Shown here: one piece after another, positions 13,573 through 64,000 of the stretch
How the letters are laid out: the number at the start of each line of letters is the position of its first letter
How positions within the stretch are numbered: the stretch's first letter is position 1
Assembly (NCBI GenBank): GCA_028285495.1
Contig: JANQPB010000009.1
Location: 1 to 64,000 of the forward strand
Length of the DNA: 64,000 bases
DNA from: Acidimicrobiales bacterium
GTDB lineage: Bacteria; Actinomycetota; Acidimicrobiia; Acidimicrobiales; SZUA-35
Direction of reading: 5' to 3'
Made by a program: the position numbers and the translations under genes
The notes under the pieces: generated by a model
What the model was told of the DNA's origin: nothing
The model's database searches: none
Seen by the model: only the letters and a program-made list of their open reading frames with translations

Positions 13573-14622
13573 TCAGTCCAGGGTGATCGGCTGATCGTCG
13601 GGATCGAGATCGTCGGCGTCACCCCCGGCTTCGCCGTCGCCGATCAGGCCGACCTCACGCAGCACCCGATCCTGGATCTCCATCACGAGGTCGGGGTTCT
13701 CGCCGAGGAACTTCTTGACGTTCTCACGGCCCTGGCCGATCTGCTCGCCCTCGTAGGTGTACCAGGCGCCCGACTTCTTCACGATGTCACGATCCACGGC
13801 GATGTCGAGCAGCGAGCCCTCACGACTGATGCCCTTGCCGTACATGATGTCGAACTCCGCCTGCCGGAACGGGGGAGCGACCTTGTTCTTGACGATCTTC
13901 ACCCTGGTGCGGTTGCCGACCACCTCGGCCCCGTCCTTGAGCGACTCGATCCGGCGGATGTCGAGCCGGACGGAGCTGTAGAACTTCAGGGCCCGGCCGC
14001 CTGGGGTGGTCTCCGGGGAGCCGAACATGACCCCGATCTTCTCCCGCAGCTGGTTGATGAAGACGCAGATCGTGTCGGTCTTGTTGAGGTTGGCCGTGAT
14101 CTTGCGAAGGGCCTGCGACATGAGCCGGGCCTGCAGGCCGACGTGGCTGTCGCCCATGTCGCCCTCGATCTCGGCCCGTGGGGTCAGGGCGGCGACCGAG
14201 TCGACCACGATCACGTCGATCGAGCCGGACCGGACCAGGATGTCGGCGATCTCGAGCGCCTGCTCGCCCGTGTCGGGCTGGGAGATCAGCAGCTCGTCGA
14301 CGTCGACCCCGATGGCCTGGGCGTACGTGGGGTCCATGGCGTGCTCGGCATCGATGTAGGCGCAGATGCCGCCGTTGCGCTGGGCCTCGGCCACGACGTG
14401 CATGGCCAGGGTGGACTTGCCCGACGACTCCGGGCCGTAGATCTCGACCACCCGGCCACGGGGGAGGCCGCCGACACCGAGGGCGAGATCGAGGGCCAGC
14501 GCACCGGTGGGGACCGTCCCGATCTCCATGTCGGTCTTGTCGCCCATCTTCATGACGGAGCCCTTGCCGAACTGCTTCTCGATGTTGCTGAGCGCCATTT
14601 CCAGCGCTTTGTCCTTCTCCAC
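13573..14622 (-). CDS. recA: Recombinase RecA
   Basis: [39 protein letters not shown]-like, [39 protein letters not shown] at 14622 preceded by AGGGAGA. Confidence 0.98.
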
Positions 14623-14794
14623 GGAATGTCTCCCTGTAGGTGGGTCCTGCACATGCAGGATGGGTTCGGGGGGAATGCAGGCTCGAACCTAGTGACGGGG
14701 TGTGACACGCAGTTCGCCGGCCTCGCTGGACACCCGCCGGCGTGGGGCCTCGGGGCACGGGTCAGCAAACGACACCGGTGTAAGTACGCCGCTC

Positions 14795-14823
14795 ACCCTA
14801 GTGGCGAACGCTCGTTCGTTCAA
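14795..14823 (-). promoter_or_regulatory. recA promoter with embedded LexA (SOS) box
   Basis: Minus strand TTGAAC-N17-TAGGGT; palindrome CGAAC-GAGC-GTTCG at 14805-14818 within the spacer. Confidence 0.85.
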
Positions 14824-14894: not shown

Positions 14895-15290
14895 ATGACC
14901 GAGACCTTCTTCCCGTACCGGCTCGATCGCCGCTGGCGCCCGATGTTCCGGGCGCTCGGCGTCACCGCCGCCGACGGCGTCACCCTGATCGAGCCGGGCG
15001 ACGAGCATCCGGACGGGCTCCTGCTGGCCACCTACGGACGGGCCCGGGTCACGACACCGCTGACCAACGTCGACCACACGGAGATCTCGGGGCCGCACCG
15101 CTGGTGGACGGCCGTCGGCCTGCGGCTCAGCCTGGCCGACGACGGCCTCACGATGGGGACCAACCACCACGCCGGGCTGTGTCTCGGGTTCGTCGAGCCG
15201 ATACCGAGGGTCATCGGTCTCCGCTCGCACTCGGCGCTCTGGGTCAGCGTGGCCGAGCCCGAGGCCCTGGCCGCCGCCATCGGTCGCTGA
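14895..15290 (+). CDS. Hypothetical protein, divergent from recA
   Basis: 132-codon ORF with high GC3 and TAGACT box upstream; no family recognised. Confidence 0.65.
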   Translation: MTETFFPYRLDRRWRPMFRALGVTAADGVTLIEPGDEHPDGLLLATYGRARVTTPLTNVDHTEISGPHRWWTAVGLRLSLADDGLTMGTNHHAGLCLGFVEPIPRVIGLRSHSALWVSVAEPEALAAAIGR

Positions 15291-63542: not shown

Positions 63543-64000
63543 TCAGACCCGGCGCATCACGGTGACCACCCGGCCATAGATCTGGACCTCGTCCGGGGCG
63601 AACTCCATCGGCTCGAGGTCCGGGTTGGCCGGTAGCAGCACCACCCGGCCCCGCTTGGCCGTGTAGGTCTTCACCGTCGCCTCGTCGCCGGGGATGCCGG
63701 CCACGACGATGTCGCCGTTGTCGGCCGTCGTCTGCACCCGGGCCACCACGTAGTCACCGTCGAGGATGCCGGCCTCGATCATCGAGTCGCCCCGGACGGT
63801 CAGCATGAAGAGGTCACCGTCGCCCGTCAGGTCGGTCGGGACCGGCAGCATCTCCTCGATGTGCTCCTGGGCGAGGACGTCGGTGCCGGCTGCGACCTGG
63901 CCGACGAGTGGGACGTGTCGGAACTGGCGCCGCTCGACCTCGACGGCGCCGCTCACCGGGTCCCACATCACCTTGAGGGCCCGCGGCTTCGACGGGTCTC
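63543..64000 (-). CDS. lexA: LexA repressor, N-terminus truncated by window end
   Basis: In-frame coding continues past ORF start 63971 to the window end (DPSKPRALKVMWDPVSG); VPLVGQVAAGTDVLAQEHIEE, GDSMIEAGILDGDYVVAR, catalytic Lys region EATVKTY. Confidence 0.95.
   Translation of the reverse strand, partial: DPSKPRALKVMWDPVSGAVEVERRQFRHVPLVGQVAAGTDVLAQEHIEEMLPVPTDLTGDGDLFMLTVRGDSMIEAGILDGDYVVARVQTTADNGDIVVAGIPGDEATVKTYTAKRGRVVLLPANPDLEPMEFAPDEVQIYGRVVTVMRRV

Follow-up and report, generated by a model that had tools for sequence, protein, structure and literature searches.

In mycobacteria (M. tuberculosis and M. smegmatis), recA has two promoters: a PafBC-dependent P1 and a LexA-controlled P2 (PMC5656591, PMC11804915). 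Deleting pafBC in M. smegmatis abolished P1 and not P2, and ClgR may also read P1 in this species (PMC5656591). PafBC is activated by single-stranded DNA and lets the sigma-A RNA polymerase use promoters in which a -26 element replaces the -35 (PMC11804915). The mycobacterial consensus for these promoters (PafBC/RecA-NDp) is tTGTCRgtg, then 8 nt, then TannnT (PMC5656591). The PafBC regulon of M. smegmatis comprises repair and recombination genes, and the pafB and pafC genes adjoin pafA and those of the Pup-proteasome (PMC8223512, PMC6789036). For Streptomyces venezuelae, the SOS box, which is of the Gram-positive/actinobacterial type, is tCGAAC-N4-GNNCGa, and an initial search suggested that the PafBC motif is not conserved (PMC9380542). 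None of the papers in the collection that we searched mentions both PafBC and Acidimicrobi-.

Here we describe the region upstream of recA in a 64,000-nucleotide stretch of DNA (the window) from a 6.75-Mb Acidimicrobiia assembly. We propose that this region contains two DNA-damage promoters, a distal one controlled by LexA and a proximal one controlled by PafBC, in the same arrangement as at mycobacterial recA. We give this reading a probability of about 0.82. What we observed is the sequence, its conservation and spacing, the genes that accompany it, and the presence of genes for LexA, PafB, and PafC.

The distal promoter and its LexA box

The intergenic region upstream of recA is 272 bp. The features of the window that matter for the distal promoter are:

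13573-14622, minus strand: recA coding sequence, 349 amino acids, with a GTG start at 14622 (Pfam RecA, 2e-143, and RecA_C)
14634-14630, minus strand: Shine-Dalgarno-like GGGAG before recA
14795-14800, minus strand: -10 hexamer TAGGGT of the distal promoter, with a predicted transcription start near 14788
14805-14818 (14818-14805 on the minus strand): LexA (SOS) operator CGAACGAGCGTTCG, assigned from the sequence and from 44/44 Acidimicrobiia recA upstreams
14818-14823, minus strand: -35 hexamer TTGAAC of the distal promoter, which is P2-like and very likely LexA-controlled; TTG is found there in 37/44 relatives
14895-15290, plus strand: divergent open reading frame of 131 amino acids without a Pfam match, which shares the intergenic region with recA
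63543-64000, minus strand: C-terminal part of lexA (from Pfam); the gene continues to 64178

The RecA protein is 72-87% identical to RecA from other Acidimicrobiia, and its nearest named relatives are from this class (for instance, Aquihabitans sp. G128). In some of the genomes compared, the match to RecA is interrupted. It stops at residue ~202 within frames of 700-830 amino acids in G138, G141, G036, G096, G060, G042, G281, G250, and G291, and at residue ~249 within a long open frame, also in this size range, in G032. We take these as putative inteins, which would occupy two positions in recA.

A preliminary description of the locus gave the promoter as TTGAAC, a 17-nt spacer, and TAGGGT, with a LexA box in the spacer, and this is exactly what the minus strand has at 14823-14795 (TTGAACGAACGAGCGTTCGCCACTAGGGT). 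The spacer is filled by CGAACgagcGTTCG, and the final C of the -35 hexamer is shared with the box. A sigma-70 promoter scan found nothing at the recA region because it required 9/12 consensus bases.

Within the window, the only exact match to CGAACN4GTTCG is the recA box. Allowing one mismatch gave four matches where 3.1 are expected, which is the chance level, so single weak matches in the window (the other three all need a mismatch) are meaningless. The preliminary description had also proposed a genome scan for the box as a check. Our genome-wide searches were by pattern, with the reversed pattern as the control. Across the 6.75 Mb there are 18 exact sites, as compared to 3 for the control, which puts the chance of an exact box landing in the 272-bp recA intergenic region at ~1e-4.

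Several of the 18 sites are at SOS genes. Besides recA and lexA, these are dnaE2 (PHP and DNA polymerase III alpha domains); imuA-imuB, an operon whose last gene encodes an IMS-type polymerase, beside an ImuA-like gene; dinB, with the box directly against its start codon; and a gene for an AlkB-like oxygenase. (The DinB and ImuA-like labels were given by eye, and the others are from Pfam.) An exact SOS box also lies 4-5 nt from the start codon of each of two paralogous genes (L004:1062-1496 and L007:1062-1496, both minus). Their products, of 144 amino acids and without Pfam matches, are a possible new SOS-regulated family.

LexA itself has the DNA-binding domain (LexA_DNA_bind, PF01726) and the Peptidase_S24 domain (PF00717; L011:678-1313). 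It had been placed in the same window as recA; this is true of its C-terminal part, while the start codon (64178) lies past the right edge. Its own SOS box is just beyond the edge as well (C24:64366-64379), and there are two such boxes between lexA and nrdR, one of them with a mismatch.

The box is present in all 44 of the Acidimicrobiia recA upstreams (41 exact and 3 with one mismatch). In 37 of these, TTG and TANNNT flank the box at a spacing of 17-18 nt, as compared to 1.1 expected at random positions, and TANNNT lies 1-6 nt past the box in all 44. As in S. venezuelae, the CGAAC-N4-GTTCG palindrome is found at the recA promoter, lexA, and dnaE2, but the flanking T...A of the S. venezuelae 16-mer (PMC9380542) is absent from the window's recA box, which has A before and C after. 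Small, AT-rich (~1 Mb) Acidimicrobiia (G005, G011, G017, G029, G033, G037, G045, G049, and G057) also kept a LexA-type box at recA, and where we inspected it, it has the CGAAC or AGAAC form.

If the similarity to a LexA-box promoter were due to chance, then recA could be constitutive. This is nearly excluded: the box is enriched over the control, it lies at textbook SOS targets, and the box and the promoter are conserved together. The earlier reading of the box as a LexA operator is borne out by the class-wide footprint, by a coherent genome-wide SOS regulon, and by a LexA that has both expected domains. Thus LexA very likely represses the distal promoter, and the case for this is about as strong as sequence alone allows. 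It is also nothing new, as LexA repression of recA is the ordinary state in Gram-positive bacteria.

A second conserved promoter closer to recA

By reading the recA upstreams across the class for further conserved blocks, we found a second conserved promoter, TGTCACACCCCgtcacTAGGTT, between the LexA box and recA (14686-14707, minus). In the window it reads TGTCACACCCCGTCACTAGGTT (14707-14686, minus), and its parts are:

14697-14707, minus strand: PafBC-type -26 element TGTCACACCCC of the proximal, P1-like promoter, assigned from conservation and spacing
14686-14691, minus strand: -10 element TAGGTT of the proximal promoter, assigned from the TGTC-N12-TANNNT spacing; predicted transcription start near 14679, for a leader of ~57 nt

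The TGTC is 12 nt from the TANNNT, which is the PafBC/RecA-NDp geometry. The mycobacterial extension (tTGTCRgtg) is not kept: the window has gTGTCACAC, with A at the R position and CAC in place of GTG. Because the GTG is missing, we use the name PafBC-type promoter and keep the term RecA-NDp motif for its strict meaning. Most of the Acidimicrobiia have CAC in place of GTG, and the extension for the class is CACCCC. Several other lineages that encode PafB do not keep GTG either, so GTG seems to mark the mycobacterial version of the motif and not the whole family.

TGTC-N12-TANNNT is found upstream of recA in 26/44 Acidimicrobiia, in 21/22 of the PafB-bearing actinobacterial genomes from outside the class, and at 45 of 68 further named recA loci (actinobacteria and outgroups). 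When we varied the spacing from 4 to 20 nt, there was a single peak at 12, with 0-2 matches at each other spacing and averages of 0.1-0.6 in shuffled sequences. If one-base variants (TGTGACACCCC, CGTCACACCCC, and others) are included, the proximal element is present in 37/44 Acidimicrobiia, always downstream of the LexA box; the remaining 7/44 recA upstreams have no recognizable proximal element. In Streptomyces recA upstreams (L051, L054, L056, L058, L059, L062, L068, and L070), there is an exact TTGTCAGTG-N8-TANNNT about 75 nt before recA, despite the initial search in S. venezuelae that had pointed to a lack of conservation (PMC9380542).

The element also occurs elsewhere. TGTCACACCCC-N5-TANNNT is found in 38 of 59 genomes from the order, while the reversed control had no matches in any of them. 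At 34 of the 69 sites examined, the start codon follows the -10 by 6-8 nt, and the distribution of distances has its peak there. With about half of the sites in this range, we take the -10 to be real, and 6-8 nt is as would be expected for leaderless transcripts.

At least seven further sites are at recA. We scanned 40 non-RecA proteins downstream of the element with Pfam, and 31 matched a family. Nearly all of the 31 are nucleic-acid enzymes, including five UvrD/Rep helicases, three Lhr-type helicases, three SbcD-type phosphoesterases, a RadA-like protein, RmuC, two PD-(D/E)XK nucleases, an RNase H-fold nuclease, two DNA methylases, DUF222/HNH proteins, ComM, and a ComEA-like HHH protein. An SRP54-type GTPase and a glyoxalase do not fit this pattern. 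(One protein, L208, that we had named RmuC by eye is an SRP54-type GTPase according to Pfam.) In the genome under study, the other exact site is before rmuC, which appears to be leaderless, and a site with one mismatch precedes the rpsF-ssb-rpsR region (named by eye). As judged from these patterns, TGTCACACCCC-N5-TANNNT is probably a DNA-damage promoter.

Two other observations concern this element. The lexA/nrdR region (L011/L140, C24:64366-64423) contains TGTCACACCCC, pointing towards nrdR, with no good -10 at the right distance. In the complete genome G110, DUF222 (13E12-like) genes are numerous, and each follows a PafBC-type promoter of the leaderless kind (L178, L179, L182, L186, L188-L191, and L193), suggesting a damage-inducible repeated gene family.

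Another account is that recA is controlled by LexA only, from the distal promoter, and that TGTCACACCCC-N5-TAGGTT is incidental. The LexA promoter is indeed the best-conserved part of the region (44/44), and it persists in upstreams that lack the proximal element. An incidental match is hard to reconcile with the sharp peak at a single spacing, the lack of control matches across 59 genomes, the repair genes that the element accompanies, or their leaderless start codons, so we consider this account very improbable.

PafB, PafC, and the presence or absence of the element

Contig C21 of this genome encodes prcB-prcA-pafA-pafB-pafC, with tatA-tatC further down, which is the canonical actinobacterial order. 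(We named prcA, prcB, and the tat genes by eye; PafA and the helix-turn-helix of PafC are from Pfam.) PafB and PafC match the solved chains from M. smegmatis with E values of ~4e-36 and 2e-40. In the crystal structure, R44 and R48 of PafB project from the recognition helix (PMC6789036), and both are kept in this genome's PafB.

PafC is present in essentially all of the larger Acidimicrobiia. In nine Actinomarina-like genomes, the element is absent from recA (0/9) and there is no close PafC; most of these have WYL proteins, some of them in a diverged tandem pair. Outside of Actinomarina, the apparent PafC-negatives have WYL proteins, and 4/5 have two WYL domains in one long frame, as in a fused PafBC-like protein. 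We did not find TGTC-N12-TANNNT in the nine small AT-rich genomes listed above, and several small AT-rich Acidimicrobiia have a diverged tandem pair of WYL proteins of ~280 amino acids.

Could the proximal element be a damage-inducible promoter for another activator, such as ClgR or another WYL regulator? ClgR recognizes P1 in M. smegmatis (PMC5656591), the class has CACCCC where mycobacteria have GTG, and this genome encodes three WYL proteins besides PafB and PafC. Yet the mycobacterial PafBC motif has exactly this TGTC and this N12 spacing, which 21/22 PafB-bearing genomes from other classes share as well, and pafB and pafC stand at their canonical locus in this genome. We therefore think that another activator is unlikely. 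The proximal element is probably a -10 promoter without a -35, and its geometry, its gene company, and the presence of the genes point to PafBC.

The CACCCC extension could suggest a shifted specificity of PafB. The recognition helix is mostly xR(A/T/Q)FERDK in Acidimicrobiia, as compared to xRMFERDK in Actinomycetia, but its residues do not covary cleanly with the GTG/CAC triplet: G095 has M with CAC, and M is also found with TAC, GAC, or CCC.

A third, palindrome-like element

Another element lies between the two promoters:

14767-14786 (14786-14767 on the minus strand): palindrome-like element TACTTACACCGGTGTCGTTT, class consensus GAATTACAN4TGTCRTTC

Similar sequences are found in most of the recA leaders of the class, usually over the distal -10; in the window, the element is ~17 nt further downstream. 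The weight matrix that spotted it was trained on the same sequences that it scored, and we count only an independent pattern search as evidence. With up to two mismatches, the pattern is ~4.6-fold more common than its reversed control across 59 genomes. Among 30 loci with the element, five are before dnaE1, three are before recA, two are before nrdJ-like genes, and one each is before lexA, scpA, mraZ, and a whiB-like gene (all named by eye). The best sites in this genome are at scpA and dnaE1. Besides the window, the loci with this element are L342, L343, and L216-L245; at dnaE1, it abuts TGTGGAC repeats, which resemble DnaA boxes.

We considered whether WhiA, which binds GACAC, might read this palindrome. 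It fits only some of the sites, and this genome's own scpA and dnaE1 sites lack a symmetric GACAC. Tentatively, and at somewhat worse than even odds, GAATnACA-N4-TGTnRTTC might be the operator of an unrecognized regulator in the Acidimicrobiales that ties together recA, dnaE1, nrdJ, scpA, lexA, and mraZ. If so, there would be a replication or cell-cycle regulon, and recA would have three inputs.

Probable dual control of recA

Our model for binding, derepression, activation, and the transcript starts is taken from Mycobacterium. The distal promoter (14795-14823) would be a sigma-A-type promoter whose spacer is the LexA operator, and bound LexA would block RNA polymerase until RecA filaments on single-stranded DNA trigger LexA's self-cleavage. 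At the proximal promoter (14686-14707), PafBC loaded with single-stranded DNA would bridge the TGTC element and sigma-A. Damage would then raise recA transcription by either route, with single-stranded DNA as the signal common to both. The predicted leaders are ~166 nt (distal) and ~57 nt (proximal).

The preliminary description had an intact recA promoter with a 5' untranslated region of ~165 nt. The distal promoter is conserved, and the GTG at 14622, with its GGGAG, fits a leader of this length. That picture was incomplete, as the PafBC-type promoter is ~100 nt closer to recA and would give the shorter leader.

The Mycobacterium loci that we compared (L049 and L050) have the LexA box distal and the TGTC element proximal, as in Acidimicrobiia. 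The Acidimicrobiia differ from them in that CACCCC takes the place of GTG in the -26 element, spacers are longer, as are leaders, and there is a third, palindromic element at the distal start site. As in the M. smegmatis regulon (PMC8223512, PMC6789036), the motif accompanies repair and recombination genes and PafBC lies next to pafA and the Pup-proteasome genes, but here the extension of the motif is lineage-specific, and DUF222/HNH genes, competence-type genes (ComM, ComEA, and ComFC-like), and rmuC also carry it.

The added result is probably a conserved, class-specific PafBC-type promoter that makes the recA region dual-control. This would extend dual LexA/PafBC control of recA from the mycobacteria to a large class, most of it uncultured. 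The class-specific motif could then serve to identify the PafBC regulon in any genome of the Acidimicrobiia. TGTC-N12-TANNNT appears to be the invariant core of the PafBC promoter and the remainder to be lineage-specific, a separation that is not visible in the mycobacterial consensus alone.
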